A stretch of 34,938 nt of DNA from an uncultured Bacilli bacterium (GTDB lineage: Bacteria > Bacillota_I > Bacilli_A > RF39 > UBA660). The notes beneath the pieces were generated by a model that was not told the DNA's origin, did no database searches, and worked only from the letters and a program-made list of their open reading frames with translations. Positions 2,773 through 28,794 of this stretch are shown one piece after another (positions within the stretch are counted from its first letter, which is position 1; each line of letters begins with the position of its first letter). The position numbers and the translations under genes were made by a program. Location: the NCBI GenBank assembly GCA_944327365.1, contig CALVHI010000009.1, positions 1 to 34,938 of the forward strand, in the 5' to 3' direction.

Positions 2773-3561
2773 TTACACTCCCATAGGCATTGTTTCAGGT
2801 AATGTAGACCCACCATCTATCACAATACCTTGACCTGTAATATAACTAGCTTCATTACTGGAAAGAAAAGCTGCTAACTCTCCAATTTCTTCTGGTAGCG
2901 CAAGTCTACCCATTGGAATTGATGTTGCTATTCCCTCTACAACTGATAAAGGATTATCTGCATTTGATTCTTTTGCCATACCATCTACCATAGGTGTTTT
3001 AACATACCCAGGCATAATCGCATTAACCCGTATTTTATCTTTAACTACTTCTGCAGCCAAACTTTTCGTAAACCCAAGAACAGCGGCCTTACTAGTTGCA
3101 TACGCTACTTCTCCTGGATCAGCAACCATTGGCCCTGTTACACTAGATAAATTTACTATAGCTCCCCCCTTTACCTTTAAAAGAGGTAAAAAAATATGTG
3201 TAACTTCCCATACTCCTAAAACATTTATATCAAAGTGAAAATCTCTTACCTCATCACTCATCTCCTCAAAAGAAGCAAGCTTACATACACCAGCATTATT
3301 AACGAGTATATCAACATTACCATAAGTGTTTTTAACTTTATTAAAAATCGCCTCAAGTAAAGACTTCTTCCTAATATCAACAATAAATCCATTTATCATT
3401 CCTGGATATTTTCTATTTAACTCTAAAATCGTATCTTTAAGCTTTAGAGAACTATCAAGAATAATAACTCTAGCCCCATACTTTAAAAAAACATTCACAA
3501 TACCTTTGCCAATCCCCATTGCTCCACCAGTAACAATGGCTACTTTCCCATCTAGTTTCAT
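2773..3561 (-). CDS. ucpA: short-chain dehydrogenase/reductase, UcpA-like
   Basis: A 262-residue SDR oxidoreductase. The NAD(P)-binding GGAMGIGKG is near residue 15, NNAG near 90, the catalytic Ser in LSSVTG, and Tyr/Lys in YATSKAA. The signature stretches VADPGE and IDGGSTLPET match E. coli UcpA closely along the length, as I recall that sequence. ATG 3561 is chosen because AGGAGG stands four bases upstream; an earlier in-frame ATG at 3576 lies before that site. It heads a three-gene coupled operon with the nitroreductase and the C39-like peptidase, preceded by an extended -10 box. Confidence 0.85.
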   Translation of the reverse strand: MKLDGKVAIVTGGAMGIGKGIVNVFLKYGARVIILDSSLKLKDTILELNRKYPGMINGFIVDIRKKSLLEAIFNKVKNTYGNVDILVNNAGVCKLASFEEMSDEVRDFHFDINVLGVWEVTHIFLPLLKVKGGAIVNLSSVTGPMVADPGEVAYATSKAAVLGFTKSLAAEVVKDKIRVNAIMPGYVKTPMVDGMAKESNADNPLSVVEGIATSIPMGRLALPEEIGELAAFLSSNEASYITGQGIVIDGGSTLPETMPMGV

Positions 3562-15285: not shown

Positions 15286-15449
15286 GGAACCACAAGGGCT
15301 CCTTCAGGGGGCTATTCATATATAGTCCCTTTTACCGTTTTTTCAGTTATTTTTAATCATTTTTACATATTTTTTCCCTTCTTTAATTAAAAATAATTAA
15401 AACTGTTTTATAAAATTTCAAAATTTTGCTACTTAAATGCTACCTAAAT
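15286..15449. repeat. left end of mobile island (att site 1, terminator hairpin and arm-type repeats)
   Basis: A segment of about 160 bp repeated at 16982-17145. It starts with the hairpin GGAACCACAAGGGCTCC (15286-15302) followed by CTTCAGGGGG (15302-15311), the sequence shared with the other two sites. 116 bases inside lie two 11-bp direct repeats, GCTACTTAAAT and GCTACCTAAAT (15428-15449), like integrase arm-binding sites. On the minus strand the hairpin is followed by GTTTTTG and works as a terminator. Confidence 0.6.
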
Positions 15450-15854
15450 TTATTTTCCAACAACAAATTTAATTCCTTTTTCATCTTGAATAATTTTTGC
15501 ATTTCCTGACATTTTTATCATCGCAGTATTGCCATTAACAGAAATCTCTGTACTATCTGTTTTACTAGTCGTGTTTTTAATAGCTATACTACTCTTAACT
15601 GTACTCGTATGATAATTTATAGCCTCATTAGAATATATTTTAGAATTTTCAATACAAAGTGTACCGTTATCTATCAGGAAATCTATAATCTTTTCAGATT
15701 TAACATCTGCCCCTTCAATTTGAAGATAATTAGACAAATCATATATAATTTCCTTTCTTGTTTTACCTTTAGAAATAGATAGTTTGATAAAATCATATAT
15801 TATATTAGACGATAAGTTGATACCCAATGACAATAAAAGAGTTCCAAAATCCAT
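15450..15854 (-). CDS. unknown 134-residue partner of the YhcG-like nuclease
   Basis: Not recognised. The N terminus (MDFGTLLLSLGINLSSNIIY) is a possible membrane-interacting helix. The middle (about 33-80) reads as a small winged-helix-like segment (IIYDLSNYLQIEGADVKSEK). The C terminus is Ser/Thr/Asn-rich beta-forming sequence with a repeated turn, ISVNGNTAMIKMSGNAKI. A strong ribosome binding site (GAGGAGG) and a 20-base gap put it in one operon with the nuclease. Its stop runs directly into the arm-type repeats of the element end. Confidence 0.7.
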   Translation of the reverse strand: MDFGTLLLSLGINLSSNIIYDFIKLSISKGKTRKEIIYDLSNYLQIEGADVKSEKIIDFLIDNGTLCIENSKIYSNEAINYHTSTVKSSIAIKNTTSKTDSTEISVNGNTAMIKMSGNAKIIQDEKGIKFVVGK

Positions 15855-15874
15855 TTTCCTTCCTCCTCAAATAA

Positions 15875-16879
15875 TTAACTTTCTACATCCATATGCAAAT
15901 GCAAATCTTCTTCAGACGGCAATTTATCTTGCAGTTCTGCTGTTAATTTATCAAAAATTTTATATTCACTTACGCCTACCGGTTTATTTATAAATTTCAA
16001 AGTATAATCTACTATCTTATTACTTTTATTTTGGCATAATATTAACCCAATAGATGGATTATCATTTTCATCTTTAATTTCTTCATCTAGTGCAGTAAGA
16101 TAAAATCCCATTTTACTTGCAAATTCCGGTTTAAAATCTCCTACCTTTAACTCTACAGCAATGTAGCATTTAAGCTTAATATGATAAAAAAGCAAATCAA
16201 TATAAAAATCTTGATTATCTATAGTAATTTTGTATTGATTTCCGACGAAAGAAAAGCCATTTCCTAATTCTAGAAGAATATTCTTAAGTTTTTCTAGAAT
16301 TTTATTTTCTAATTCCTTTTCTTTATAGTCATCTGTCAATTCAATTAAATCAAATACATAAGGTTCTTTCATAATATTATTAGCAAGATCACTATTTTGC
16401 TTCAAAGTTAAATTAAAATTATTATGTTTAATTGTTTTTACTTGTCTATTATAAAGATCAGTATCTATTTGATAAACCAAAATATTATCTGACCAACCTT
16501 CTTCTAAGCATTTACCCATATACCATTTACGAATTTCTTTGTCTTTTACTTTTTGCATCAAAGTAATGTTATGCTTCCATGGTAATTGTGCAACCAGTTG
16601 CACAAATTCTTCATCATCTTTATATTCATTATAAAAAGATTTCATATATTTTAAATTACGAACTGAAAAACCTTTTAAATTAGGAAAAGACATTTTTAAT
16701 TCCATAGCAACATTATCTATAAACTTATTTCCCCAACTACTATTTTCTTCTAATGTTTTACCAATATTAAAGTAAAGATTAACTAACTTTTTGTTAGCAT
16801 CTGTCATGATTTCTAGTTGAGTGTTAGTTATTGCATTTTTAATACTACTTGTTATTTCTTGAAACGACTTATCTAGCAT
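15875..16879 (-). CDS. YhcG/DUF1016-family PD-(D/E)XK nuclease
   Basis: A 334-residue protein with the DUF1016 N-terminal helical domain (FNIGKTLEENSSWGNKFID, GFSVRNLKYMKSFY, VAQLPWKHNITLM) and a C-terminal PD-(D/E)XK nuclease fold with Asp228, Glu243 and Lys245 (FYIDLLFYH ... AVELKVGDF). The catalytic residues are intact. The family is scattered on mobile elements, often near restriction systems, and is thought to cut DNA; its exact job is unsettled. AGGAGG precedes the ATG. It is the first gene of a two-gene cargo operon. Confidence 0.85.
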   Translation of the reverse strand: MLDKSFQEITSSIKNAITNTQLEIMTDANKKLVNLYFNIGKTLEENSSWGNKFIDNVAMELKMSFPNLKGFSVRNLKYMKSFYNEYKDDEEFVQLVAQLPWKHNITLMQKVKDKEIRKWYMGKCLEEGWSDNILVYQIDTDLYNRQVKTIKHNNFNLTLKQNSDLANNIMKEPYVFDLIELTDDYKEKELENKILEKLKNILLELGNGFSFVGNQYKITIDNQDFYIDLLFYHIKLKCYIAVELKVGDFKPEFASKMGFYLTALDEEIKDENDNPSIGLILCQNKSNKIVDYTLKFINKPVGVSEYKIFDKLTAELQDKLPSEEDLHLHMDVES

Positions 16880-16902
16880 AAGTTTATCCTCCTTATATAA
16901 AG

Positions 16903-16911
16903 ATTATAGCA
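16903..16911 (-). promoter_or_regulatory. extended -10 promoter of the nuclease operon
   Basis: TGCTATAAT on the minus strand, about 24 bases upstream of the ATG at 16879. Confidence 0.5.
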
Positions 16912-16981
16912 TTTTATAAGCGTAATTAAAACTTTTTATATGTGATATTTTAAACAAAATTAATCAAGAACAACAAAAAAT

Positions 16982-17145
16982 GGAGCCACAAGGGCTCCTT
17001 CAGGGGGCTATTCATATTCAGTCCCTTTTACTATTTTTTCATTTATTTTTAGTCATTTTTGCTTGATTTTTCCCTTTTTTAATCGAAATCAATTAAAAAC
17101 ATTTTATAAAATTTCAAAATTTTGCTACCTAAATGCTACCTAGAA
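16982..17145. repeat. internal att site 2: second copy of the 160-bp element end
   Basis: Hairpin GGAGCC...GGCTCC (16982-16998), core CTTCAGGGGG (16998-17007), then 116 bases to the 11-bp repeats at 17124-17145, the same spacing as in copy 1. On the minus strand the hairpin is followed by ATTTTTTG and terminates the gene at 17136. The second 11-mer overlaps that gene's stop codon. Confidence 0.6.
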
Positions 17146-18239
17146 TCATTAATTAAATTAGGAAGAGAACTATCAATTCTTACAGCATTTGTAGAAGCCA
17201 ATACTTTACCAATAGGAGTTAAAGTGATTGAATATGCAGCAATGTATTGATTCCACCAATTCCTAACTCTTTTCATACTAGGATATTTATCCATAAAAAT
17301 ATTAAAACTATTTTTAGTATCATTGTTCTTTTTGTCATAGCTATCATAAATTTCCTTCAATGTAGTTTTTTGCAATTCTGTGAATTCTTGCCAATTTGTT
17401 TTACCATCAGTACTTTTTTTAAAAAAGCCTAAGGAATCTATACTATCTTTTTTAAAAATCGGTAATCGCAAATAATTCTCATGCAATTCGTTTGGAACTA
17501 ATATATTAATTGATATATTCGAAGCTTTTAATTTTTCGATAGCTTCATTATATTGATTACTATTTTTTTGAATTCCCAAACACGAATAACCATCATATTC
17601 ATTATAGAGAATATCTTCAAATTTTTCACTAACAAACCCCTTATTAATTCTCACTGCATTAATAAGTTCTAAATTTTCTAACCAAGAAATACTCTTTGGA
17701 AGTTCAAAATATTCTAATAAATGGCTATACAGAGAATCTAAAGCAGCAAAACCTTTGGATATACTCCCAGCTGTTGGAACATAATGAGTTATTGAAAAAA
17801 TTAGAGTTAAAGCCATTAATGCTTCATCGGAAATATTATTAACCTCACTAATAGCTTTTTCCACCGCAGTAGATATGACATAATCATCACTTTTTTCAAT
17901 TTTATGTATTAATAATTCAGACAAAATTTCATAATCGGTCTTTCTTTCAGTGCAAATCGCAGTTTGTTCAGTCTTTCTAAACAATACTTGAAACGCTGGC
18001 TCGTTAAAAACCGATAATAATTCTGCCTTCACTAATTTAGGCATTAAAACTTCTGTATAATTATCTAATCGTTTTTGAGCAATACTTGCAGCTATTATTT
18101 TCGCATTTTCTAAAAGTAAAGCATTTTCTTCTCTAATAATTTTTCTTACTTCTGTTTCAGTTATGCCAAAATTAATATTATTAGCTTGCAAAGATATAGA
18201 ATTATCACCAGTCCTTTGATGCATACTATTTTCTTTCAT
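17136..18239 (-). CDS. LPO_1073/Vpar_1526-like family protein (probable defence effector or sensor)
   Basis: A 367-residue protein. It begins with a polar motif, MHQRTGDNSISLQANNIN, then a helical region (GITETEVRKIIREENALLL...) and a long mixed domain ending TLTPIGKVLASTNAVRI. The layout matches, from memory, the NCBI family called LPO_1073/Vpar_1526; no catalytic motif is seen. The ATG at 18239 has AGGTGA five bases upstream and overlaps the preceding membrane-peptide gene by 14 bases. The N-terminal GDNS..LQ..NIN motif resembles the tail of that peptide (DNSLQVQIGDIN), suggesting amyloid-type pairing. Family assignment is moderately sure; function is inferred. Confidence 0.6.
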   Translation of the reverse strand: MKENSMHQRTGDNSISLQANNINFGITETEVRKIIREENALLLENAKIIAASIAQKRLDNYTEVLMPKLVKAELLSVFNEPAFQVLFRKTEQTAICTERKTDYEILSELLIHKIEKSDDYVISTAVEKAISEVNNISDEALMALTLIFSITHYVPTAGSISKGFAALDSLYSHLLEYFELPKSISWLENLELINAVRINKGFVSEKFEDILYNEYDGYSCLGIQKNSNQYNEAIEKLKASNISINILVPNELHENYLRLPIFKKDSIDSLGFFKKSTDGKTNWQEFTELQKTTLKEIYDSYDKKNNDTKNSFNIFMDKYPSMKRVRNWWNQYIAAYSITLTPIGKVLASTNAVRIDSSLPNLINDSR

Positions 18240-18396
18240 TTATGTCACCTATTTGTACTTGTAAAGAGTTATCTCTTGATTTTTGAATTTGCTTTTTCTT
18301 AACATTAATATGTAAAGAATATTGATAACCTCCTATAAAACCTGCAATCAAATTAAATATCCCACTGATTAATGCAGCTAAAATTGTATCATTCAT
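18226..18396 (-). CDS. 56-residue membrane peptide with VQIG amyloid-like tail
   Basis: Starts MNDTILAALISGIFNLIAGF, a single transmembrane helix, then a basic stretch (HINVKKKQIQKS) and the C-terminal motif DNSLQVQIGDINERK. VQIG has the (I/V)Q(I/V)G form of the RHIM core and related bacterial amyloid signalling motifs. ATG 18396 is chosen because GGGAGG lies eight bases upstream and an extended -10 box sits at 18437-18445, inside any longer reading frame. It overlaps the next gene by 14 bases; the codons for IGD form that gene's ribosome binding site, so the two proteins are produced together. Confidence 0.65.
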   Translation of the reverse strand: MNDTILAALISGIFNLIAGFIGGYQYSLHINVKKKQIQKSRDNSLQVQIGDINERK

Positions 18397-18436
18397 TACA
18401 ATAACCTCCCATAAAAAATTATATAACCACAAAATA

Positions 18437-18445
18437 ATTATATCA
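18437..18445 (-). promoter_or_regulatory. extended -10 promoter of the two-gene cargo system
   Basis: TGATATAAT on the minus strand, about 41 bases upstream of the ATG at 18396. Confidence 0.5.
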
Positions 18446-18737
18446 AATACTAAATATAAAGTCATAAAACTTTTTTAACTAAAATTTTTAAAAACAATTA
18501 AGATAACATAAAAAACTATATTAAATAATAAATTTCTTAAATAATATAAGTACAAATACAAAATTTAAGCAAATTTAAAAGCATTAATATTTTTTTATCG
18601 TCAAATACAAACATAAAAATTACTGTTCACTTAATTATAGGTATTACAAATTACATAACCAATATATCTCAACATACAACTTGCTTATGTTTCTCTTTAT
18701 TTAAATAACATCTTAATTAAATACTTATATTAAGTTT

Positions 18738-19040
18738 TTATTTAATTATTTTTTTCGTACTTAAATATTTTTTAAATTCATCATTTTCTTTTTTTATTTT
18801 ATAAACATTTAGAAAATATAAAACTATTAAAATAATATCAATTATCTTAATAAAAAACATATTTTCATCAGTTTCAGCCATAATTCTTAAAATTATAAAG
18901 ATAGTAATAGGAATTATAAAAATTAATAAGCATTTATTAAAATCATGAAGTTTTTCTCCAGTTACACCATTATATTTGCTTCTAAACTCTTTTATATATT
19001 TGTTTTGTTCTTCTTTAGTTAAATCATACCAGCTTTTCAT
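18738..19040 (-). CDS. small membrane protein with two central helices
   Basis: A 100-residue protein. Residues 1-35 are charged (WYDLTKEEQNKYIKEFRSKY), two hydrophobic helices follow (about 37-53 and 62-80), and a lysine-rich tail ends the chain. No family recognised. GAAGGG precedes the ATG, and the gene lies 19 bases after the 206-residue gene, with which it is probably co-transcribed. The 270 bases between it and the cargo pair (18466-18737) are very AT-rich and hold no gene I can support. Confidence 0.7.
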   Translation of the reverse strand: MKSWYDLTKEEQNKYIKEFRSKYNGVTGEKLHDFNKCLLIFIIPITIFIILRIMAETDENMFFIKIIDIILIVLYFLNVYKIKKENDEFKKYLSTKKIIK

Positions 19041-19059
19041 ATTTACCCTTCTTTCTATA

Positions 19060-19680
19060 CTATAAATTTTCTATTTCTATATAAAATGCATTTATATATG
19101 GAATAGTAATTGAAGAATTTAAAATAGATGTATATGTTTTTAATCCATTTAATTTACCGTACAGTGTAATAATATCTCCTTCAATTATTCTTGGTGTGCC
19201 TTCCATAGGCATATAATAAACATAAATTGTATCTTCATAGTTGCCATACTCATTTTCTGTTACATTAACTCTCATTTCATAAATCGCAAATTCCATTGTA
19301 TTATCTTCCATAACCTGAATTACTTTTCCAGTAAATTTTGCTAATTCTCCCTCATGATCTTCTGCATATCTATAAATATCTTCATAATCATATTCTTTAC
19401 AATTTTCTTTATAATAAGTAATTTGCCATTCGCTATAAGGCAATTTTTCACCTTTTTCTTCCTCATCTAAGTTATTATCATTATCAATTAATTCACAATT
19501 CAAATTATTTTCATTCAAAACATATCCATCAGGGCACTCATAACATTGGTTATTTATTAAAACTCCACTACCACTACACAAAATATCTTTATTATCAAAA
19601 ATTGCATTATAAGTACAAGCAAATAATATAAACAAAACTACTACTATTCCAAATATTATAAATGCCTTGTTATTATTCAT
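19060..19680 (-). CDS. membrane-anchored protein with Cys-rich stalk and OB-like domain
   Basis: A 206-residue protein. One N-terminal hydrophobic helix (about 5-25) is followed by a small cysteine motif (LCSGSGVLINNQCYECPDGY, then NCEL) and an acidic linker. The C-terminal domain (about 85-206) has a strand pattern typical of an OB fold: LAKFTGKVIQVMED, TIYVYYMP, IIEGDIITLYGKLNGL. The mature protein should be outside the cell. Related C-terminal domains occur in lipoproteins of Gram-positive mobile elements, but I cannot name the function. A TATAAT box lies upstream. Confidence 0.65.
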   Translation of the reverse strand: MNNNKAFIIFGIVVVLFILFACTYNAIFDNKDILCSGSGVLINNQCYECPDGYVLNENNLNCELIDNDNNLDEEEKGEKLPYSEWQITYYKENCKEYDYEDIYRYAEDHEGELAKFTGKVIQVMEDNTMEFAIYEMRVNVTENEYGNYEDTIYVYYMPMEGTPRIIEGDIITLYGKLNGLKTYTSILNSSITIPYINAFYIEIENL

Positions 19681-19897
19681 AAAACTCTAATACCTCACTT
19701 TAAAAATAATTAAATTATATGCTTAAAATACAACCATTGTATATCATAATATAAAATACATTTTAGCATTATTTTTTCATAAATGCCTACAAACCATACT
19801 AATTTATTTGCTTAAATTATAACATAAATATTAAGTAATTCATATCACATTTTTACCAATTTTAGAATTTCTTAACTTCATAATATAAATTGCCTCA

Positions 19898-20170
19898 TCA
19901 TTCATTTTTTCTATAAGTTTCATAAAGTTTCAATTCACATTCTTCAATACTTTTATTATAATCTATTAATTTCTTCTTTTGAAAGAAGAACGGTTTAGTA
20001 TTCTCCAAAAATTCTATCTCTGCTCGGTACATCTTTGCTTGTTGTCCGAGCATTTTTAAATGTAATTCTGATTCTTCAATATCATAAGAAACTATAATAG
20101 ATAATAGGTCTTTTACTATTCCTTCATCAATCCCATTCTTTTTAATATATAATACCCTTCTTTCTAGCAT
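19898..20170 (-). CDS. unknown small protein of the element
   Basis: A 90-residue, mostly helical, charged protein (ESELHLKMLGQQAKMYRAEI and KKLIDYNKSIEECELKLYET read as helices able to form a coiled coil). No family recognised, and no clear ribosome binding site before the ATG at 20170. It is divergent from the regulator at 20265. It may be real or may start at an internal codon. Confidence 0.5.
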   Translation of the reverse strand: MLERRVLYIKKNGIDEGIVKDLLSIIVSYDIEESELHLKMLGQQAKMYRAEIEFLENTKPFFFQKKKLIDYNKSIEECELKLYETYRKNE

Positions 20171-20264
20171 ATCCCTACACTAGAGCAAAAAGTTGTTGTT
20201 ATATAGTCCAATTTACATATTTTCAAATACTTATTATCATAATATTAGTGATTAAGACTGCGAG

Positions 20265-20540
20265 GTGTGTAAAATAGACAATAAAACTGTTACTAATGAA
20301 ACTAGCATTTTATTAGGAAAAAACATTGTGTATTTTCGCCAATTAAAAAATTGGTCGCAGGACACTTTATCAAGCAAATTAGGTTCTGATAAAGCCTACT
20401 TATCACAAATTGAAAATGCTAAAAGAAGTGCTTCTACAGAATATATTGATAGACTTTGCCGAGTTTTCAATATTAAAGCCGAAGAATTGTTTAAGGAACG
20501 TAACTTTGACTTAAAAAAACGTGTAGATAGCAAAAAATAA
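20265..20540 (+). CDS. XRE-family regulator
   Basis: About 91 residues with a clean HTH_3 domain (residues 18-75: LGKNIVYFRQLKNWSQDTLS, then AYLSQIENAKRSAS, and FNIKAEELF). The start is uncertain: the only standard start in frame is a GTG at 20265 that overlaps the GAGG which should be the ribosome binding site, so translation may begin at a non-standard codon such as the ATA at 20274. A terminator follows. It is probably a regulator of the element. Confidence 0.75.
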   Translation: MCKIDNKTVTNETSILLGKNIVYFRQLKNWSQDTLSSKLGSDKAYLSQIENAKRSASTEYIDRLCRVFNIKAEELFKERNFDLKKRVDSKK

Positions 20541-20562
20541 CTCTAACGTAGGGTTATTTTTA
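20535..20562 (+). terminator. terminator after the XRE gene
   Basis: AAATAACTCTA / TAGGGTTATTT stem (one G-T pair), three-base loop, T-rich tail. Confidence 0.65.
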
Positions 20563-20590
20563 TTTTACCATATTTGTAATAAAATTGTTA

Positions 20591-20632
20591 GTAAAAATAG
20601 ATTACTTTTTTGTAAAGATAGATTACTTTTTT
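20591..20632. repeat. 21-bp tandem repeat (two copies)
   Basis: GTAAAAATAGATTACTTTTT plus one T at 20591-20611 is followed immediately by the same unit with one change at 20612-20632. The period is two helical turns. It lies in the promoter region of the next regulator and so may be its operator or an iteron. Confidence 0.6.
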
Positions 20633-20675
20633 TATTTAATATTTATGAGAAAATTTTTTACAAGAGGTGGTAAAA

Positions 20676-20987
20676 TTGTCTAACATACCTACATTTCAAG
20701 AATTACAAAAGAAAATGGCTAATTTTAATTTATCTGATTATCAAGCAACAATATGCAAAAATATAAAAAGAATAAGAAAAGAACTATATGAAGAATATAA
20801 ATCTTACTATAAAGATAACAATTTAGATAATCCCTATTCTTCACAGTCAGTAGCAGAGTTACTTGGAATTAGTTATGAATATTACAAAAGATTAGAAAGT
20901 TTTGATAAATCAAAACCAATATCTATAAAGATTTTTCTAAAAGTTGTAGTATTATTTAATAAAGATATAAATGACTTTTTTATTTAA
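20676..20987 (+). CDS. HTH-domain protein of the element
   Basis: A 103-residue protein starting at TTG 20676, six bases after AGAGGTG; the GTG three codons earlier overlaps that site. The pattern SSQSVAELLGISYEYYKRLE is an HTH recognition region of XRE type, and the region before it is a long charged helix. It is preceded by a 21-bp tandem repeat. Possibly a control protein for copy number or excision; the role is not visible. Confidence 0.65.
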   Translation: MSNIPTFQELQKKMANFNLSDYQATICKNIKRIRKELYEEYKSYYKDNNLDNPYSSQSVAELLGISYEYYKRLESFDKSKPISIKIFLKVVVLFNKDINDFFI

Positions 20988-20995
20988 TAGCTAAT

Positions 20996-21062
20996 AAAAA
21001 TGACAGTATGACAGCATTTAGAGATATGCCTCTCACTTTTTGCTGTCATCTGTCATTTTTTT
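20996..21062. terminator. bidirectional terminator between convergent genes
   Basis: Arms TGACAGTATGACAGCA (21001-21016) and TGCTGTCATCTGTCA (21041-21055) pair with one bulge, flanked by A's on the left and T's on the right, so they serve both strands. The right arm lies in the last codons of the gene at 21033. Confidence 0.8.
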
Positions 21063-21491
21063 CATAGTTTGACTTGCTAATTTTTTTGTTTCGTTATAAA
21101 CTTTTTCTTCTGAAATATATAAACATACTTCAAAAAATATAGTAAACAAGAACAATAAAATAATTACATAAAAATTATCTTGAGATAAAACACCTAAATT
21201 TTGTAAAAATATAATTGCCAAGAAAATCAAAGCATACACAACTACAAAAGTTATAGAATAATTATCCAGTTCACTATAAATATTTTTTGATTTTCTTTTA
21301 TCAATATTTAGACCACTTTTTAACCACTTTCTTAAAAACCAAACATTTCCTAATAAGGAAGCATACATAAATAACCAATAAAAAGAAACTGATAGAGTAT
21401 GTTTAGTAATTAAATAAAATATAAAAGATATAATTAAACCTATATTACTTGTAATTTGAACTAGGTTTAATGCTTCAATTCTTTTTTTCAT
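21033..21491 (-). CDS. four-helix membrane protein coupled to the repressor
   Basis: A 152-residue protein with four hydrophobic segments (about 12-30, 35-52, 75-95, 100-120) and charged ends. No family recognised. Its ATG (AGAGG nine bases upstream) lies inside the end of the repressor gene with 17 bases of overlap, so the two are translated together. It could sense a membrane signal for the repressor, or be an immunity-type protein; this is a guess from position. Confidence 0.7.
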   Translation of the reverse strand: MKKRIEALNLVQITSNIGLIISFIFYLITKHTLSVSFYWLFMYASLLGNVWFLRKWLKSGLNIDKRKSKNIYSELDNYSITFVVVYALIFLAIIFLQNLGVLSQDNFYVIILLFLFTIFFEVCLYISEEKVYNETKKLASQTMKKMTDDSKK

Positions 21492-21981
21492 TATCTAACC
21501 TCTCTTTCGTTTTAGCACTATGTAGCAATTTTACAATTTCATTTGCAGTATTAATTTGATATTGAGTATCTTCGATAGTTTGAAATAAAACTTCTTTTTC
21601 AGTTTCTAAAATGTTTGGATCTTCTAATCTTTCCTTAAAAGATTTAACTAAAGCCTCCCAATTTTCAATACTTCCTAAAGTATTTACTAGTGCTTCATCT
21701 AATTGTTTCCCTTTTAAACTAGAATAATATCGTTTTAAAAAAGGGTTAAGTGGACTAACTTGTGTACCAAGTCCAGCAGCATACATTAAATCATTATAAT
21801 TAACACCAATAAACTGACTTATTTTTCTTAATGTTTTAGGATTAGGTACAGCTCTTTCTCCTGATTCTATCCGAGCAATTTCAGTATGGCTTACATTTGC
21901 TAACTCAGCAAGTTGATTTTTAGATAAACCTACTTTTTCTCTAGCCTCAGTAATCATTTGTCCTACTGTTTTATTTTCCAT
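21475..21981 (-). CDS. XRE-family repressor of the mobile element
   Basis: A 168-residue protein from ATG 21981 (AAAGGAG five bases upstream). Residues 8-65 form a canonical HTH_3 domain (MITEAREKVGLSKNQLAELA, VSHTEIARIESGERAVP, NYNDLMYAAGL). The C-terminal 90 residues are helical and probably a dimerisation part. It faces the strong promoter of the replication/mobilization operon across a region with GGTTC/GAACC operators, so it is the likely master repressor. There is no RecA-dependent autoproteolysis domain. Confidence 0.85.
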   Translation of the reverse strand: MENKTVGQMITEAREKVGLSKNQLAELANVSHTEIARIESGERAVPNPKTLRKISQFIGVNYNDLMYAAGLGTQVSPLNPFLKRYYSSLKGKQLDEALVNTLGSIENWEALVKSFKERLEDPNILETEKEVLFQTIEDTQYQINTANEIVKLLHSAKTKERLDNEKKN

Positions 21982-22069
21982 AATTGCTCCTTTCACGACC
22001 AATTATACATCATTTTGCACTAAATTACAAGATATTTTTATTTTTTTGCACTTTTTGGTTCGAAAAGTG

Positions 22070-22115
22070 TTGACAAAGGTTCAAAAATATATTATAGTTG
22101 AACCGAATGGTTCAA
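22070..22115 (+). promoter_or_regulatory. operator-promoter of the element's replication/mobilization operon
   Basis: TTGACA (22070-22075), 17 bases, TATAGT (22093-22098). The palindrome TTGAACCGAATGGTTCAA (22098-22115) covers the start of transcription, and further GGTTC half-sites occur at 22057 and 22078 around the -35 box. This looks like a repressed promoter controlled by the XRE protein encoded in the opposite direction. Confidence 0.8.
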
Positions 22116-22355
22116 TACTATTCTAAATTGTTCTTTGAAAACTATATAGAGTTATATATTGTGAGTGCCGTAACTATTAACTCGTAAAACATGGCAAGGT
22201 ACTTGAAAAATATCCTCACTAGCCAGAGGAGTTGTAAGTAATCTAAAACTTTCCTTAGATATATTGGTAAGTCCTAAAATTAAGGATAAATATACTATAT
22301 ATACATCCTAAAAGGGAGTTAGAGGTAACACTAAAACCTCACAGAAAGGAAAAAG
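22116..22355 (+). promoter_or_regulatory. 240-base leader with rRNA-type boxA
   Basis: The untranslated leader begins with TTGTTCTTTGAAAACT (22128-22143), very like the boxA antitermination site of Gram-positive rRNA operons. It then holds several short hairpins (CCTC-8-GAGG, ATCTAA-8-TTAGAT, AAGGAT-ATCCTA). It may keep transcription going through the long operon, or be a regulated leader. No reading frame with a ribosome binding site is seen in it. Confidence 0.5.
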
Positions 22356-22628
22356 GTGATAATTATAAGTGCAAATGAAACTTTAGAATTAATATCAAAA
22401 CAATGGTGTGATTTAAGTGATTTAAAGAAACTTACAGGACTAGGAAAAAATAGTACAAGTAAATTAAGAAATGAAATAAAAGCCGATTTATTAAGTAAGG
22501 GCTATCTTCTGCCAAATAAATTACTACCAATGAATGAAGTAGTAAATTACTTAAAAATTAATGTATCATACTTGCAAAAGATGTCAAAAGATACAAACGA
22601 GAGGAAAAAAGTAATTGAAAACAATTAG
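22356..22628 (+). CDS. small DNA-binding protein (DUF3173/excisionase-like)
   Basis: A 90-residue protein from GTG 22356 (AAAGGA five bases upstream). The pattern SDLKKLTGLGKNSTSKLRNE is a winged-helix/HTH like the small DUF3173 or excisionase-type proteins found in Gram-positive integrative elements. It is the first gene of the operon and overlaps the RepA-like gene by 14 bases. It may act in excision or in replication initiation. Confidence 0.6.
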   Translation: MIIISANETLELISKQWCDLSDLKKLTGLGKNSTSKLRNEIKADLLSKGYLLPNKLLPMNEVVNYLKINVSYLQKMSKDTNERKKVIENN

Positions 22629-23559
22629 TGAAATGCAAAAAGATTACAAAAAAAACGACTTCATCGTAGAAAACTTAATGAAGTCTAGGGGACTATATTG
22701 CTTAGTTGCTAGACCAAAAGTTGGCAAGTCATTATTAGCATTACAGCTTGCCAACTCTGTGGCAGCACAAAACAGTTTCTTAGGTTTTAAAACAATTAAA
22801 TCTCCTACTCTATATATTAGCACAGAAATGAATCATACACAAATACTTGATAGAATAAATATTATGAATTTACAATTTACTGACACAAATTTCTTTTTAA
22901 AAGAACAAGAACCAAATGAAAGAAAATTAAATTATATGGATTTACAAGTAGATTTTCAAAAATTTGCTAATGAATATAATGGTAAATTAGTAATTATAGA
23001 TATGTTGTATGGAATTGATATGAATAATGGCTATGATATAAACAATTATCAAGACACAGGTCAATATTTAATTCCAAAATTTAGAGAACTATGTCAAAAA
23101 TATAACTTTACAATTCTTCTAATACATCACTTAAACAAAAGTAATACTTCTTTGGGAAGTACAGCCATAGATGGTTCTGTTGATGGTATGCTAATATTAA
23201 AAGAAGATACTCATATTAAAAATAAAATAATTCTCGAATACGAAAGTAGAGATTATGAGGGCTTTGAATTAATATTAAAAAAAAATGAGAACCTAATCTT
23301 TGAAAGGTCAGAAACTGAAATAGAAGATTTAGATTATAACTTAACTGTTTTTCTTAACTATGCAATTAAACAAAAAGAATTTACTTTTACTGTATCAGAA
23401 ATAACTAGTAAATTAAACCTTAATATAACACCATCAGTATTTGGAAAGTTATTAAATAATAACTTATCCACATTAGAAAAAGAGGGACTATCTATTACGA
23501 TGAAAAGAACATCAACCGAACGAACCTACTTTGCTAAATATCAAGAACCACTTGATTAA
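22615..23559 (+). CDS. RepA-like AAA (RecA-fold) ATPase
   Basis: A 314-residue protein with Walker A ARPKVGKSLLALQ (Lys38), Walker B LVIIDMLYGID, and LLIHHLNKSNTSLGSTAIDG, the sensor region of hexameric RepA/DnaB-like RecA-fold ATPases (AAA_25). The C terminus (about 240-310) looks like a winged helix. It probably helps the excised element replicate. It starts at TTG 22615, with AGAGG upstream, inside the end of the preceding gene; an ATG six codons later is also possible. Confidence 0.8.
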   Translation: MKTISEMQKDYKKNDFIVENLMKSRGLYCLVARPKVGKSLLALQLANSVAAQNSFLGFKTIKSPTLYISTEMNHTQILDRINIMNLQFTDTNFFLKEQEPNERKLNYMDLQVDFQKFANEYNGKLVIIDMLYGIDMNNGYDINNYQDTGQYLIPKFRELCQKYNFTILLIHHLNKSNTSLGSTAIDGSVDGMLILKEDTHIKNKIILEYESRDYEGFELILKKNENLIFERSETEIEDLDYNLTVFLNYAIKQKEFTFTVSEITSKLNLNITPSVFGKLLNNNLSTLEKEGLSITMKRTSTERTYFAKYQEPLD

Positions 23560-23578
23560 AACTTTAGTTTTAATCACT

Positions 23579-23804
23579 AAGTTATCGTGGCACGTTTTGT
23601 TTGCGATAGCAAATGAAAGTGGCGATAGATAACTTATTAAAATTAATATTTCCTTTATTCATATTGGAAATATTAATTTATTGTTGAAACTTGATACCCC
23701 TTTTGCAAATAGGGGTATCTTGTGAAAACAATATAAGGGGGTTTTTAGGGAACTCCCTAAACTCACATGGGCTATGCCCTAGTGAGATAGGTCATTAATG
23801 ACCT
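23579..23804 (+). other. probable oriT: cluster of inverted repeats upstream of the relaxase gene
   Basis: Six inverted repeats fill the gap before mob: AAGTTATC/GATAACTT (23579-23635) enclosing TTTGC-GATA-GCAAA; the 14-bp pair AAATTAATATTTCC/GGAAATATTAATTT (23640-23679); GATACCCC/GGGGTATC (23693-23719) followed by TTGTGAAAAC; TAGGG/CCCTA (23746-23759); CTCAC/GTGAG (23762-23786); and the perfect palindrome AGGTCATTAATGACCT (23789-23804). MobV relaxases nick next to such hairpins directly upstream of their own gene. The nick site is not proven. Confidence 0.6.
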
Positions 23805-23828
23805 GAATAAATAAAAGGAGGGCGATAA

Positions 23829-25241
23829 ATGGATAACATTTATGATGGAAAACAAGTATTAAGATTTGCAACTAAATATAAAGCAAAAGATTTATTTAAT
23901 ATAGGACAAGAATTAACCAAAAGAAAAGGTACAGGAAATTATGATAGCAAAAGAACCGAATTTAATGTTAATTATGTTCCTATGAAAGAACGTAATCTAT
24001 ATCAACAAGTAAAGAAAATACTAAAAGAACGTGATATAGAATATTTAAAAAAAGATAGTACCAATATGCTAAATGGTGTAGTGTTCACAAGTGGTAATGA
24101 GTTTTTCCAAAGTTTAGGTATGAAATTTAAAGATAGTGGTAGAACTTACAAAACAGGCAATAAAAAAGGGCAAAGTGTATTTGTACCTGATATAAATGGT
24201 AAGGAAGATATACCTCTTGAAGTAACCTATTATTTTGATAGTTGTATGGAGTTTTTGATAGACTTAGTTGGTAAGGAAAATATTGTCATGGCACAAGTAC
24301 ACTATGATGAAGATACCCCTCACCTACAAGCCTACTTCTTACCTATCGTAAATGAAGTTAAAAGAAAAGTTTATAAAAAAGATAATGAGGGTAATACAAT
24401 TAAAGAAGAAGTAAAAGATAATAATGGCAATGTTAAACTAATACCTATATTACAAAGAGATAATAATGGCAAAATTATATATGAAAATATAAAAGGTAAA
24501 TTTTTAAACAACGACCAATTTTGGAAAGACTTAGGTGGCAAAAATTCTTTTGCTAAACTACAAGATAAATTTAATAAGTTTATCAATGGAAAAGGTTTCA
24601 AACTAGATCGTGGTAATATTGGAAGTCATATAAAAAATCAAACAAAGTTAGACTATCAAATTAGTGAATTAAAGGCTGAATTAAGCGATTTAAAGGAAGA
24701 ACTTAATTACACGGCCAAAGAGATAGAAATAAACAAAAATAGCCTTAAAAATATGGATAAATCAGATAATATTACTAATATAAAAAAAAGAATTACAGGA
24801 TATAGTTCAAAAGATGTAGATAGATTAATCTATTATGCTAAAACGCTTGAAAAAGATAAAATATTATCTGCTAACACGATTAAAAATCAAGAAATTCAAA
24901 TTACAAGGTTATTAACTTATAATAATAGATTTAAAGCTAACAAAGAATATTTAAAACAAAAAGAAATGTTAAAAGAGCAACAACAAGAAATTAAAGAATT
25001 AAAAAATGAATTAAATAAAAAAGATTTATTAATCAATTCTTTAAAAAATATAAAATCAAAGTTAGAAGAAGAACTAGATAGATGGAAAGGTTTATTCGAT
25101 AAAATGGCTAATGCTATTGATAAAATCTTAGGTAGAAAAAAATCAAAATATGTAGAAGACTATGAAGATTTAGCAAATTCTATTAATTATGATTATTATG
25201 AAGAAACAAAAGATAAAGATGATTTTGAAATCGAAATATAA
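23829..25241 (+). CDS. mob: MobV-family relaxase (Mob/Pre)
   Basis: A 470-residue relaxase that nicks oriT and leads the strand into a recipient. The N terminus carries the MobV pattern, with the metal-binding motif VHYDEDTPHLQAYF (first His at residue 158) and the RTEFNVNYVP segment near residue 40. From about 270 on the protein is a long coiled coil rich in Glu and Lys, as is usual in Pre/Mob proteins. AGGAGG precedes the ATG. It lies directly after the oriT-like region. Confidence 0.88.
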   Translation: MDNIYDGKQVLRFATKYKAKDLFNIGQELTKRKGTGNYDSKRTEFNVNYVPMKERNLYQQVKKILKERDIEYLKKDSTNMLNGVVFTSGNEFFQSLGMKFKDSGRTYKTGNKKGQSVFVPDINGKEDIPLEVTYYFDSCMEFLIDLVGKENIVMAQVHYDEDTPHLQAYFLPIVNEVKRKVYKKDNEGNTIKEEVKDNNGNVKLIPILQRDNNGKIIYENIKGKFLNNDQFWKDLGGKNSFAKLQDKFNKFINGKGFKLDRGNIGSHIKNQTKLDYQISELKAELSDLKEELNYTAKEIEINKNSLKNMDKSDNITNIKKRITGYSSKDVDRLIYYAKTLEKDKILSANTIKNQEIQITRLLTYNNRFKANKEYLKQKEMLKEQQQEIKELKNELNKKDLLINSLKNIKSKLEEELDRWKGLFDKMANAIDKILGRKKSKYVEDYEDLANSINYDYYEETKDKDDFEIEI

Positions 25242-25254
25242 AAAGGATGATAAA

Positions 25255-25372
25255 ATGATACAAACAACAATAAAAAAAATATAAATTTGATAAAGACCTT
25301 GCATTAAAAGAATAATTGAATTTTATTGAAATTGAAAGGAGTGAAAAATATGGCAATTATCTTATTAAATAA
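25255..25372 (+). pseudogene. decayed small ORF between mob and integrase
   Basis: An ATG with AAAAGGATG upstream opens a frame that stops after nine codons (MIQTTIKKI). A one-base shift in the A run restores KYKFDKDLALKE, then a stop, then LNFIEIERSEKYGNYLIK to 25372, overlapping the integrase start. This looks like a frameshifted small gene; an excisionase is often found in this position. Weak evidence, because it is short. Confidence 0.35.
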
Positions 25373-26507
25373 AAAAGAATGGACAAAAGACGGTCGAAAA
25401 TGGATATTTTATACTAGATATAAAGACTTAGATGGTAGAACAAAGCAATATAAATCAAAAAAATACATTAATAAAAAAGAAGCTCAAGAAGCTGAAAAAC
25501 AATTTTATCTTGAATTTGATAAATATCGTCCTGACAATAATATGACATTCAAAGATTTGTATACTGCTTTTTATGATTATCAAAAAGACAAAGTAAAAGA
25601 AACAACTTTACACACTTATCATGATAGAATCAGATATATGGCACTTTTAGACAATATTAAAGTTAAAGAATTTAATATCCAACATTATGAGGCATGGCGA
25701 AAAAAGATATTGGAATACAAGTTATCAAATAGAACAAGAAACTATATTTATAAATTCTTAAAAACAATAATGAATTTTGGTACAAAATGGTATGGTATTA
25801 ATTTTAATGAAATATATCCAAAAATGACAAATTTTACTGATCCTAGCGAAATAAAAAAGGAAATGGAATTTTGGACTTATGAGGAATTTGCAAAATTTAT
25901 ATCAGTAGAAAAAAATCTAACTTATAAATGCTTATTTAAAACATTATATTACTGCGGACTACGAAAAGGAGAAGCAAGAGCATTAAATTGGAACGACATA
26001 GATTTTATAAATAATACTGTCAAGATTAATAAAGGATTATCTGATAATGTAAATGGAAAAACTTATATTATCACTAGTCCTAAAACACTAACAAGTAATA
26101 GAACTTTACCATTACCTAAAGGCTTAGTAAATGATTTAAAAAAATTAAAGGAAAAAGCGATGGAATTTACCAATTTTAAAGAAGATTGGTTTATTTTTGG
26201 AAATGCTATACCTCTAGGTGATGATGCTATTAGAAGAAGAAAAAACAATAATTGTAAATTAGCAAAAATTAAACAAATAAGAATTCACGATTTTAGACAT
26301 TCATGTGCCTCATTATTAATTAATAATGGAGCAGACATAACACTTGTTGCTAAATATCTAGGACACTCTAAAATTGATGAAACACTAAACACTTATTCTC
26401 ATATGTTTAAAAACAAATTAAATAATATTATTAACCTAATAGATACATTAGATAATAATACTGCACCTAATAAAAAAGAAGAAATTGATTTTGAAATAAG
26501 TATATAA
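25350..26507 (+). CDS. int: tyrosine recombinase / integrase
   Basis: A 385-residue integrase. Residues 1-60 form the arm-binding domain (WIFYTRYKDLDGRTKQYKSK), 65-165 the SAM-like core-binding domain, and 175-360 the catalytic domain with Arg205 (YYCGLRKGEARAL), His313/Arg316 (HDFRHSCASL), LGH, and nucleophile Tyr349 (TYSHMF). All catalytic residues are intact. ATG 25350 has AAAGGAG eight bases upstream. It should recombine the CTTCAGGGGG-containing ends, and the arm domain may bind the paired 11-mers. Confidence 0.93.
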   Translation: MAIILLNKKEWTKDGRKWIFYTRYKDLDGRTKQYKSKKYINKKEAQEAEKQFYLEFDKYRPDNNMTFKDLYTAFYDYQKDKVKETTLHTYHDRIRYMALLDNIKVKEFNIQHYEAWRKKILEYKLSNRTRNYIYKFLKTIMNFGTKWYGINFNEIYPKMTNFTDPSEIKKEMEFWTYEEFAKFISVEKNLTYKCLFKTLYYCGLRKGEARALNWNDIDFINNTVKINKGLSDNVNGKTYIITSPKTLTSNRTLPLPKGLVNDLKKLKEKAMEFTNFKEDWFIFGNAIPLGDDAIRRRKNNNCKLAKIKQIRIHDFRHSCASLLINNGADITLVAKYLGHSKIDETLNTYSHMFKNKLNNIINLIDTLDNNTAPNKKEEIDFEISI

Positions 26508-26510
26508 ATT

Positions 26511-26545
26511 AATTAGGAAACCAAAGCAATGGTTTCCTAATTTTT
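26511..26545 (+). terminator. terminator of the integrase gene
   Basis: AATTAGGAAACCA / TGGTTTCCTAATT stem with a six-base loop and seven T's. Confidence 0.88.
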
Positions 26546-26576
26546 TTATGGAAAAATTTATTAAAAAGTTAAAAAT

Positions 26577-26598
26577 GCTACCTAAATGCTACCTAAAA
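26577..26598. repeat. arm-type repeats at the right end of the element
   Basis: GCTACCTAAAT (26577-26587) and GCTACCTAAAA (26588-26598) in tandem, in the same orientation as the pairs at 15428-15449 and 17124-17145. The position 79 bp inside the right att core suits integrase arm-binding sites. Confidence 0.65.
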
Positions 26599-26644
26599 CC
26601 CAATTCCATTAAAAGATAAACATTAAAAACTCCCATAAATACTG

Positions 26645-26750
26645 AAAAAAACAAAAGTGTCCAGCATTTCTGCTGGACTTCAGGGGGTTTTGGTTGACTC
26701 ACTTTCACACAAGTCGTAAAAGTGATATCGGACATGATGTTTATCATGTC
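26645..26750 (-). ncRNA. putative small RNA of about 105 nt with C-rich segment, target of element integration
   Basis: A promoter (26757-26785) would start transcription at 26750, exactly at the hairpin GACATGAT-AAAC-ATCATGTC. A second stem (TCACTTT / AAAGTGA) follows, then the unpaired C-rich stretch AACCAAAACCCCCTGAAG, then a terminator hairpin and T run. No reading frame is seen. The C-rich loop could pair with ribosome binding sites, as in RsaE-like RNAs. The last part comes from the mobile element. No known RNA family is recognised. Confidence 0.5.
26659..26687 (-). other. right att site (hairpin plus core)
   Basis: GTCCAGC-ATTTCT-GCTGGAC (26659-26678) followed by CTTCAGGGGG (26678-26687). 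On the minus strand this is CCCCCTGAAG, a hairpin, and ACTTTTGTTTTTTT, so the element end supplies a complete terminator to the RNA entering from the recG side. Confidence 0.6.
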
Positions 26751-26756
26751 ATAATA

Positions 26757-26785
26757 ATGATATTATTTTTTTCGACATTTGTCAA
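26757..26785 (-). promoter_or_regulatory. promoter of the putative small RNA
   Basis: TTGACA (26780-26785), 17 bases, TATCAT (26757-26762) on the minus strand. The predicted start seven bases on is the first base of the 5' hairpin. Confidence 0.55.
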
Positions 26786-26808: not shown

Positions 26809-28794
26809 TTAATTTAACCTTTCTAAATCACGAACTATTTTTTTATAATTCATATTATTGTTATAAGCCCCACTATTTAAATATTCTTCGCTATCTCTTT
26901 TCGCTTGCATCATAATTTTTAAATCAGTTTTTAAATTGGCAATTTTAAATGTTTTAACCCCACTTTGCATCGTTCCAAAAAGATCACCTTCACCTCGTAA
27001 TTCCAAATCTTTTTCGGCAATATAAAAACCGTCATTACTTTCCTCAAGAACTTTTAGGCGATCTATTTCTTTATCACATATTAAATAGCAATAAGAATCA
27101 AGATTATTTCTCCCTACTCGACCACGAAGTTGATGAATGGTTGCAAGCCCAAAACGGTCAGCATCAAAAATGACCATAATAGTTGCATTTTTAACATCAA
27201 CCCCTACTTCAATAACAGTCGTAGAAATAAGTATTTTTGTTTCATTATTTTTAAATCTTTCCATAATCACATCTTTTTCTTTTTGTTTTAACTTGCCATG
27301 AAGTATTTCAATTGGAATTTTACCCTGATAAGCCATATTAAATTTTTCTTTTAATGTTTCCACACTCTTTAAATCTAGTTCCAAATTATCATCGATAATA
27401 CTTGCTACAACATAAACTTGATGACCAGCCTTTATTTCTTCTAAAACATGCATAAGTACATCTTTAAGTTCACTATATTTTTTTATTTTGGTAACAATTT
27501 CTTTTCTTCCACCCGGTTTATGACGAATAAATGAAACATCTAAATCACCATATAAAGTTAAAGCATAAGTTCTTGGAATTGGTGTTGCACTCATATATAA
27601 AGCATCCGGAACATCTCCTTTGCTTTTAAGGATTTCTCTTTGCTTTACTCCAAAACGATGTTGTTCATCTGTAATAACTAATCCCAACTGATAAAAAGAT
27701 ACATTTTCTTCTAAGATAGCGTGTGTTCCAATCAAAATATCAATATCACCACTAGCAAGCCTTACCTTTACATTATCTTTTTCTTTTTTAGTCATACTAC
27801 CCACTAATAAATCAATAGTTAAATGACACTTACTAAAATAAGAAACAGCTGAATCAAAATGTTGCCTTGCTAAAACTTCCGTAGGAGCCATTAAAACACT
27901 TTGATATCCGGCTAAAAAGTTCGCATACATACTAATAAAACTAATAATAGTTTTACCACTACCAACATCACCAAGTACTAATCTATTCATCTTTTTATTA
28001 CTTTTAATATCACTTAAAATAAAAGATAAAGCTTCTGTCTGACTATCAGTTAACAAAAAAGGAAGACTAGAAATAAACTCATTGACTTTATTTTCTTCAA
28101 AATATTTTTCTTTTTTATACGTATTTTCATTTTCATTTTTCATATAAGCAATTTTAAACAAAAACAAAAACAATTCTTCATATTTTAAAAACACTTTAGA
28201 TTTCTTTATTTCATCAAAATTACGCGGACTATGAATCATCCGTAAAGCTTGTTTTTTACTAATAAAATCATATTTCATCATAAACTCATCAGGAATATAA
28301 TTAGGTATTTTAGCACTATCAACAAGAGCACTTTCCATAATCTTTCTTAAATCATTATTCTTAATTCCTTTCTTAATATGATAAATAGGAATGATCTCTT
28401 TTTTAGTTAAAGGAATTAACTTTATATCATCACAAATAAAAGTATTCTTTTTTAAATCATACTTACCTACCAAAGTAATTGTTTTACCTATCACAATATG
28501 TGATTTTAAAAAAGCCCGATTAAAAATAACAGCATACATAACTTTACCATTATGATTTACTCGAAATTGCAATTTATTAAAATTCTTACGTATGAATGCT
28601 GTAGTTGCAGTTGTCTCAATCACTACATTAATAGCAATTCTTTCATGATCATAATCATCCGTCAAATTAGTAGGTTCAAATAAATCATAGCGATAAGGAA
28701 AATAGGAAAGCAAATCACAAACGCTGGCAATTCCTAAATCCTTTAAATTTTCTAATGTTTTAGGTCCAACACCTTTAATATCTCTTAACTCCAT
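26809..28794 (-). CDS. recG: ATP-dependent DNA helicase RecG
   Basis: A 661-residue helicase that remodels stalled forks and branched DNA. The N-terminal wedge/OB domain starts DIKGVGPKTLENLKDLGI and includes FPYRYDLF. Walker A is LGDVGSGKT (near residue 280), the DExH box is DEQHRFG, and later motifs include MSATPIPRTYALTLYGDLD, STTVIEVGVDV and QLRGRVGRN. The length is normal. In-frame stops just upstream force the start at ATG 28794, but the only good ribosome binding site is 34 bases away behind a hairpin. Confidence 0.96.
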   Translation of the reverse strand: MELRDIKGVGPKTLENLKDLGIASVCDLLSYFPYRYDLFEPTNLTDDYDHERIAINVVIETTATTAFIRKNFNKLQFRVNHNGKVMYAVIFNRAFLKSHIVIGKTITLVGKYDLKKNTFICDDIKLIPLTKKEIIPIYHIKKGIKNNDLRKIMESALVDSAKIPNYIPDEFMMKYDFISKKQALRMIHSPRNFDEIKKSKVFLKYEELFLFLFKIAYMKNENENTYKKEKYFEENKVNEFISSLPFLLTDSQTEALSFILSDIKSNKKMNRLVLGDVGSGKTIISFISMYANFLAGYQSVLMAPTEVLARQHFDSAVSYFSKCHLTIDLLVGSMTKKEKDNVKVRLASGDIDILIGTHAILEENVSFYQLGLVITDEQHRFGVKQREILKSKGDVPDALYMSATPIPRTYALTLYGDLDVSFIRHKPGGRKEIVTKIKKYSELKDVLMHVLEEIKAGHQVYVVASIIDDNLELDLKSVETLKEKFNMAYQGKIPIEILHGKLKQKEKDVIMERFKNNETKILISTTVIEVGVDVKNATIMVIFDADRFGLATIHQLRGRVGRNNLDSYCYLICDKEIDRLKVLEESNDGFYIAEKDLELRGEGDLFGTMQSGVKTFKIANLKTDLKIMMQAKRDSEEYLNSGAYNNNMNYKKIVRDLERLN

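Follow-up and report, generated by a model that had tools for sequence, protein, structure and literature searches.

In uncultured bacteria of the class Bacilli, we found a conserved small RNA (sRNA) gene downstream of recG, and it is very probable that this is a stand-alone gene whose C-rich seed overlaps the attachment (att) site of several families of integrative elements, the terminator of the RNA being exchanged between them. The window, that is, the whole stretch of 34,938 nucleotides that was analysed, carries the sRNA gene on the minus strand (26750-26645, about 100 nt), with a near-consensus promoter, two stems, the unpaired AACCAAAACCCCCUGAA and a terminator. The gene and its neighbor are made up of the following parts.

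26809..28794, minus strand: recG, the conserved neighbor upstream of the sRNA (78/92 loci, 45/56 genera)
26780..26785, minus strand: -35 hexamer TTGACA of the sRNA promoter, read from the sequence (TTGACA or TTGACT in most of the 77 order-wide loci)
26757..26762, minus strand: -10 hexamer TATCAT, 17-bp spacer (TAT(A/R)AT-like across aligned loci)
26645..26750, minus strand: the predicted sRNA gene at present, about 100 nt, made up of the host body and a terminator from the element (fold, alignment, covariance model)
26731..26750, minus strand: stem-loop 1, 8 bp (8/8 pairs changed on both sides in 77 loci)
26696..26729, minus strand: stem-loop 2 (main helix, 8/9 pairs changed on both sides)
26679..26695, minus strand: unpaired, nearly invariant AACCAAAACCCCCTGAA, the proposed antisense seed, its 3' part being the recombination core
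26645..26678, minus strand: intrinsic terminator GTCCAGCAGAAATGCTGGAC plus T run, from unit A (hairpin shared with L186 and L187, which belong to another genus)

The promoter hexamers match the consensus at 11 of 12 positions, and the predicted +1 (26750) is the first base of the perfect hairpin GACATGATaaacATCATGTC. A promoter with 17-bp spacing and a start exactly at such a hairpin had been proposed in the earlier note, and both are found (TTGACA-17-TATCAT), as are the second stem, the C-rich unpaired stretch and the terminator that it placed further along the minus strand. The terminator hairpin GTCCAGCAgaaaTGCTGGAC spans 26678-26659 and is followed by the T run. The predicted fold of the whole sRNA has an energy of -36.8 kcal/mol (z = -6.6), which none of 200 shuffles equalled. 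Judged by sequence only, the sRNA is a stand-alone gene with its own promoter; its transcription and termination are predictions, because RNA-seq data are lacking.

When relatives were searched, 28 of the 36 genomes of the genus, the window's own among them, matched the sRNA strongly. The first covariance model was built from 19 sequences of the genus, and covariance searching revealed the sRNA in 214/288 genomes of the window's order (82/102 genera), nearly always as one copy. In 77 loci, 95.6% of cells pair and 17 of the 18 pairs have changed on both sides; both-side changes amount to 258 cells compared with 59.6 ± 6.9 in shuffles (0/500 as high), and none of the slid pairing registers in the same loci came near the real covariation. 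The most conserved part of the sRNA is the unpaired AACCAAAACCCCCTGAA. The covariance model from relatives that the earlier note had suggested recovers the gene across the order, and conservation of 26688-26750 beyond the element, on which that note's reading depended, is borne out, since the body is kept with covariation in genomes with or without an element. Rfam 15 gave no match at the window's sRNA, either at the gathering score or at a permissive threshold, nor did Rfam match the sRNA in 20 further loci; ARAGORN and Rfam together detected no tRNA, tmRNA or known family at the site, and a literature search for an RNA of this lineage returned nothing relevant. Given the covariation, the lineage-limited distribution and the absence of an Rfam match, we take the sRNA as an unlisted family; as far as these comparisons reach, it is a previously uncatalogued RNA family of this lineage. 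A second model, applied to genomes of the class outside the family, gave one match only (G419); the contig in question, 3 kb long and also carrying recG, has probably been misbinned.

The gene recG nearly always precedes the sRNA, with about 60 nt between the two in most loci. In the same-genus genomes without a strong match, recG was absent, incomplete or situated at the end of a contig or close to it, so most of these absences may be assembly gaps. In G003, the sRNA was absent from the 195 bp after recG. At a contig start in G027 (L355), TTGACA follows recG and is itself followed by a repeat known elsewhere in that genome; the sRNA may be interrupted here, or the contig misjoined. In four loci (L147, L148, L152, and L153), a gene whose product has about 580-595 aa and no known function lies between recG and the sRNA promoter, and in L161 (G035, 2930-3002) the sRNA and its promoter follow rplKAJL, not recG, the gene having moved or the flank having been rearranged.

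The short distance to recG in most loci would also fit an account in which the elements target an intergenic terminator after recG, the RNA is a functionless recG 3' UTR or leftover, and the terminators insulate the elements from outside transcription, terminators beside element ends being common in general. We regard this account as very unlikely in the face of a conserved promoter that the RNA itself has beyond the recG stop, stems that covary, an unpaired stretch with almost no variation, and copies behind genes other than recG (the inserted gene of L147, L148, L152, and L153; rplKAJL in L161). Even less credible, to the point of being hardly tenable, is that the RNA does not stand alone but acts in cis, as a leader or attenuator of the downstream gene: an attenuator, too, would consist of a structured RNA followed by a hairpin and T run, but the downstream genes vary by locus and are often an opposite-strand integrase, and the function of the terminator is kept while its sequence is not. 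A cis-regulatory leader was ruled out by the lack of a conserved downstream gene. Hairpin 1 was also considered as a DNA operator and ruled out, since its spacer (the loop, 4-7 nt across the window's genus) varies in length yet the pairing is kept, and the stem covaries across genera.

Conservation of the sRNA gene stops at CCCCCTGAA, the recombination core, where homology to relatives ends. This core is the 3' portion of the unpaired AACCAAAACCCCCTGAA, in line with the earlier placement of the att core in the C-rich part. About half of the same-genus matches break off precisely where CCCCCTGAAG ends, at query position 107-109, and side-by-side loci of the genus have a nearly unchanged promoter and body, then differing hairpins that are each followed by a T run. 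Exactly three copies of the core CTTCAGGGGG are present in the window, at 15302, 16998, and 26678 (with up to one mismatch, 4 matches compared with 0.36 expected), forming a direct repeat at both ends of the window's units. A scan of a genome collection with GTCAACC..CCCCCTGAAG returned mostly unrelated GC-rich chance matches. The units and their ends are as follows.

26678..26687, minus strand: att core CCCCCTGAAG, host-side copy
26576..26597, minus strand: tandem direct repeat TTTAGGTAGCATTTAGGTAGCA, likely arm-type integrase sites
25326..26507, plus strand: tyrosine integrase of unit A, convergent with the sRNA (PF00589, E 3.4e-27)
23829..25241, plus strand: Mob_Pre (MobV-type) relaxase of unit A (PF01076, E 3.2e-14)
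17008..26677, no strand: unit A, about 9.7 kb, predicted integrative mobilizable element (bounded by the cores at 16998 and 26678; gene content)
17123..17143, minus strand: tandem repeat matching the TTTAGGTAGCATTTAGGTAGCA type, far end of unit A
16998..17007, minus strand: att core between units A and B (core search)
16982..16998, minus strand: native-type terminator hairpin GGAGCCCTTGTGGCTCC plus T run by the middle core
15312..16997, no strand: unit B, 1.7 kb, with a DUF1016/YhcG nuclease (PDDEXK) and a 134-aa ORF, without integrase
15427..15449, minus strand: arm-type repeat, far end of unit B
15302..15311, minus strand: outermost att core, chromosome side (core search)
15286..15302, minus strand: displaced native-type terminator hairpin GGAGCCCTTGTGGTTCC plus T run

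Further genes of unit A encode a DnaB-like AAA protein and HTH regulators, and no conjugation genes were recognised among the ORFs, of which only ten proteins were scanned. By its predicted gene content, unit A is an integrative mobilizable element, with an integrase and a relaxase and without a full conjugation set. The far ends of units A and B are homologous to each other. Homologues of unit B directly follow the sRNA in other genera (85% in L216; also L259 and L233), from which we infer that it behaves like a unit moved by the integrase of another element. In L149, a unit B homologue lies behind another element, with a decayed core CCCTCTGAA. The hairpins at 15286-15302 and 16982-16998 are near-identical, being one base apart (GGAGCCCTTGTGG[T/C]TCC), and the hairpin at 26659-26678 is unrelated to these two distal ones. 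All three att copies do carry a hairpin and T run on the same side, as had been claimed, but the hairpins are not three different ones, two of them being one-base variants.

Under a strict test that 0.4% of other positions pass, a hairpin and T run directly follow the core in 86/88 loci, with 48 different hairpins, and in the two loci that fail a hairpin is present by eye. The integrase-bearing loci all passed (22/22, 14 different hairpins). In 31 inter-genus pairs of loci, the downstream DNA is 85-100% identical and the RNA bodies are only 52-79% alike, which indicates that the terminator travels with the element. The swapped hairpins across loci and the flanks shared between genera provide comparative evidence for the proposal that each integrating unit restores a terminator. 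The displaced and supplied terminators are not homologous, so that restoration is functional and not by sequence copy; this lack of sequence similarity suggests that what is selected is termination as such.

To place the integrases relative to the core, we used a landing-site sample of 95 loci from 58 genera, 61 of them informative (at least 1.3 kb downstream), with the caveat that, in these metagenome assemblies, many of the loci are at the end of a contig. Of the 61 informative loci, 19 (15 genera) have a tyrosine integrase that begins 89-182 bp from the core and is always convergent with the sRNA. The other 42 have no adjacent integrase; some are empty, some hold integrase-less units, and the rest are unresolved. 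Most integrase-bearing loci contain tandem direct repeats with an 11-12-bp period, 58-100 bp from the core. Such a layout is that of arm-type integrase sites, as with Tn916-like integrases. In 27/95 loci, the contig breaks off no more than 300 bp downstream of the core, but in only 3/95 does it start within 300 bp upstream; such an excess of downstream breaks would be expected where strains differ at a site. A phage origin of the elements was considered and rejected, since the exact att patterns of two families hit no viral contig and the RNA motif hit only one.

A near-homologous pair of loci, L153 (occupied) and L154 (unoccupied), differs by a 3.3-kb unit inserted exactly at the core and bounded by copies of CCCCCTGAA; the DNA beyond the second copy is the post-RNA DNA of L154 (90% over 1.5 kb). 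The L153 unit lacks an integrase and encodes radical SAM/SPASM-like, methyltransferase-like and membrane proteins (named by eye). In L150, an RNA body identical to that of the window is followed by a native-type terminator, with ccdA 1.1 kb on; ccdA is also present on the far side of the window's units. The empty site that the earlier note predicted is therefore seen in relatives as regards its form (in L150, the identical body, then GGAGCCGTAAGGCTCC plus T run), but not as the exact site for the window's right flank, for which we found neither an exact empty site nor a close counterpart. Likewise, neither a circular junction nor an empty site in the same species came to light.

Taken together, the RNA family, its structure, the core, the terminator exchange and the adjacent integrases are features of the genomes themselves as read by comparison, and from them we infer transcription of the RNA, action of the integrase at the core, mobilization of unit B in trans and an antisense role for the sRNA. 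Crossover in CCCCCTGAA, within the C-rich seed, would part the RNA body from its native terminator, and the incoming unit would bring a different intrinsic terminator directly beside its own core. The resulting hybrid gene, with its own promoter kept, would still make a complete RNA, sparing the host RNA, and the native terminator would be displaced to the far end of the unit. Repeated insertion may then give tandem arrays, as with units A and B in the window.

Antisense action of the sRNA is suggested by its nearly invariant, unpaired seed, as in C-rich Gram-positive sRNAs (PMC3861533), and we infer that it pairs through ACCAAAACCCCC with G-rich mRNA leaders. That the C-rich part pairs with ribosome sites, as the earlier note had ventured, is likewise an inference, and the complement better supported here is GGGGGUUUUGG or AAGGGGG, not AGGAGG. 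The seed complement GGGGGTTTTGG has about 71 exact sites outside the sRNA in the 36 genomes of the genus, compared with 20 for the reversed pattern. Of 31 distinct complement sites read, 18 lie in sense orientation within the locus of a small hydrophobic ORF that has a ribosome site, and 1 is antisense, against a background of 13%. Such sites would be expected if, in the window's genus, the sRNA silences type I toxin-like small hydrophobic-peptide genes through GGGGGUUUUGG in their leaders or 3' ends, and some complement loci have terminal inverted repeats together with a tiny hydrophobic peptide (by eye); however, such sites are almost absent from ten genomes of other genera in which the sRNA is conserved and has the standard seed, the toxin-like loci may encode their own cis antisense RNAs, and their loop may be kept for another reason, so we consider this role rather unlikely. 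Perfect seed complements in the other genera tried were almost only the sRNA itself, and in variant genera two sites that seemed to be additional ones resemble further sRNA copies. As a separate observation, L318, L327, L331, L333, L323, L345, L320, and similar loci resemble type I toxin-antitoxin families, many with GGGGGTTTTGG in the leader or 3' end.

Alternatively, the sRNA might mainly repress translation by covering AAGGGGG ribosome sites, such as those of a MYE[DE]K membrane protein family, in the manner of Gram-positive C-rich sRNAs. MYE[DE]K orthologues in the genus share the conserved site AAGGGGG(A)TTTTGT-ATG, predicted duplexes range from -16 to -29 kcal/mol, and in g48, where the sRNA reads CCGAACCCCC, G330 has GGGGGTTCGGTATG at a start codon. 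On the other hand, one extra base usually interrupts the complement, just one compensatory-looking site was found, and, in the window's own genome, 25 of 300 shuffled leaders pair equally and an AGGAGG control leader pairs well too; this role is thus a possibility that we entertain only tentatively. The leaders of the MYE[DE]K family (L393-L422) contain a conserved GCAAAACCAA...TTGGTTAAGGGGGATTTTGT-ATG and could adopt a fold in which the G-rich ribosome site is exposed. A broader scenario, in which one core-genome sRNA silences many scattered toxin-like peptide genes via GGGGGUUUUGG and, being indispensable, offers a safe permanent landing site where unrelated elements insert in the seed, each with a new terminator, is speculative and in our view improbable.

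With these results, an order of uncultured bacteria of the Bacilli class, with small genomes, gains a strongly supported RNA family that Rfam 15 lacks. The results also provide a clear case of elements that preserve a host RNA by an equivalent, non-homologous part and not by a copy of the lost one, with 48 terminator hairpins at one nucleotide position in 58 sampled genera. The site is also a variable one, at which assemblies break up and the diversity of elements in these genomes is concealed. The complements of the seed in small-peptide genes allow the role of the sRNA to be tested directly.

Integrative mobilizable elements with a Mob_Pre relaxase and integrase-less cis-mobilizable units are both known classes. 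Unit A resembles the former in gene content but differs in its attachment site, and unit B is like the latter in sharing the att ends of unit A without an integrase, although its mobility is only inferred. In C-rich Gram-positive sRNAs (the Rsa family and RNAIII), accessible C-rich boxes are expected to bind ribosome sites (PMC3861533). An accessible C-rich seed is common to both, but the RNA described here has no Rfam match, and its seed, unpaired between stem 2 and the terminator, is also a recombination core. The ryeA/sdsR (ryeB) locus of Salmonella is an insertion hot spot (Balbontin 2008, as cited in PMC6610125); it is a bidirectional sRNA pair of enterobacteria, and the RNA is unrelated. 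At the PrrF1/PrrF2 locus of Pseudomonas aeruginosa, genomic islands integrate downstream of the sRNAs, leaving the sRNA genes intact (PMC8373256). Both systems have islands at a conserved sRNA locus and keep the sRNA, but here the inferred crossover falls within the part that is transcribed, and one terminator is swapped for another.

In the targeting of tRNA and tmRNA genes, the lost sequence is made good by a copy that the element brings along. Integration into these genes with restoration of the 3' end has been described (Williams 2002, as cited in PMC2784084). The sRNA site is alike in that a tyrosine integrase uses a conserved RNA gene and the displaced part is restored; it differs in that the shared block is about 9-10 bp, the restored part is an unrelated hairpin, and the target is neither a tRNA nor a tmRNA. 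The sRNA site separates the selected trait, a working terminator, from recombination identity, which tRNA targets cannot do because the two coincide there. Terminator restoration by unrelated hairpins across genera was not described in the precedents that we found, in a literature covered only in part, so priority is uncertain. The closest principle is the end restoration of tRNA and tmRNA genes, and the closest sRNA precedents found are PrrF and ryeA/sdsR. The sRNA-targeting elements work like the RNA-gene-restoring class without being plain members of it, as the restored segment is not homologous to the displaced one, and restoration by unrelated terminators appears to be a new form of RNA-gene-targeting integration.
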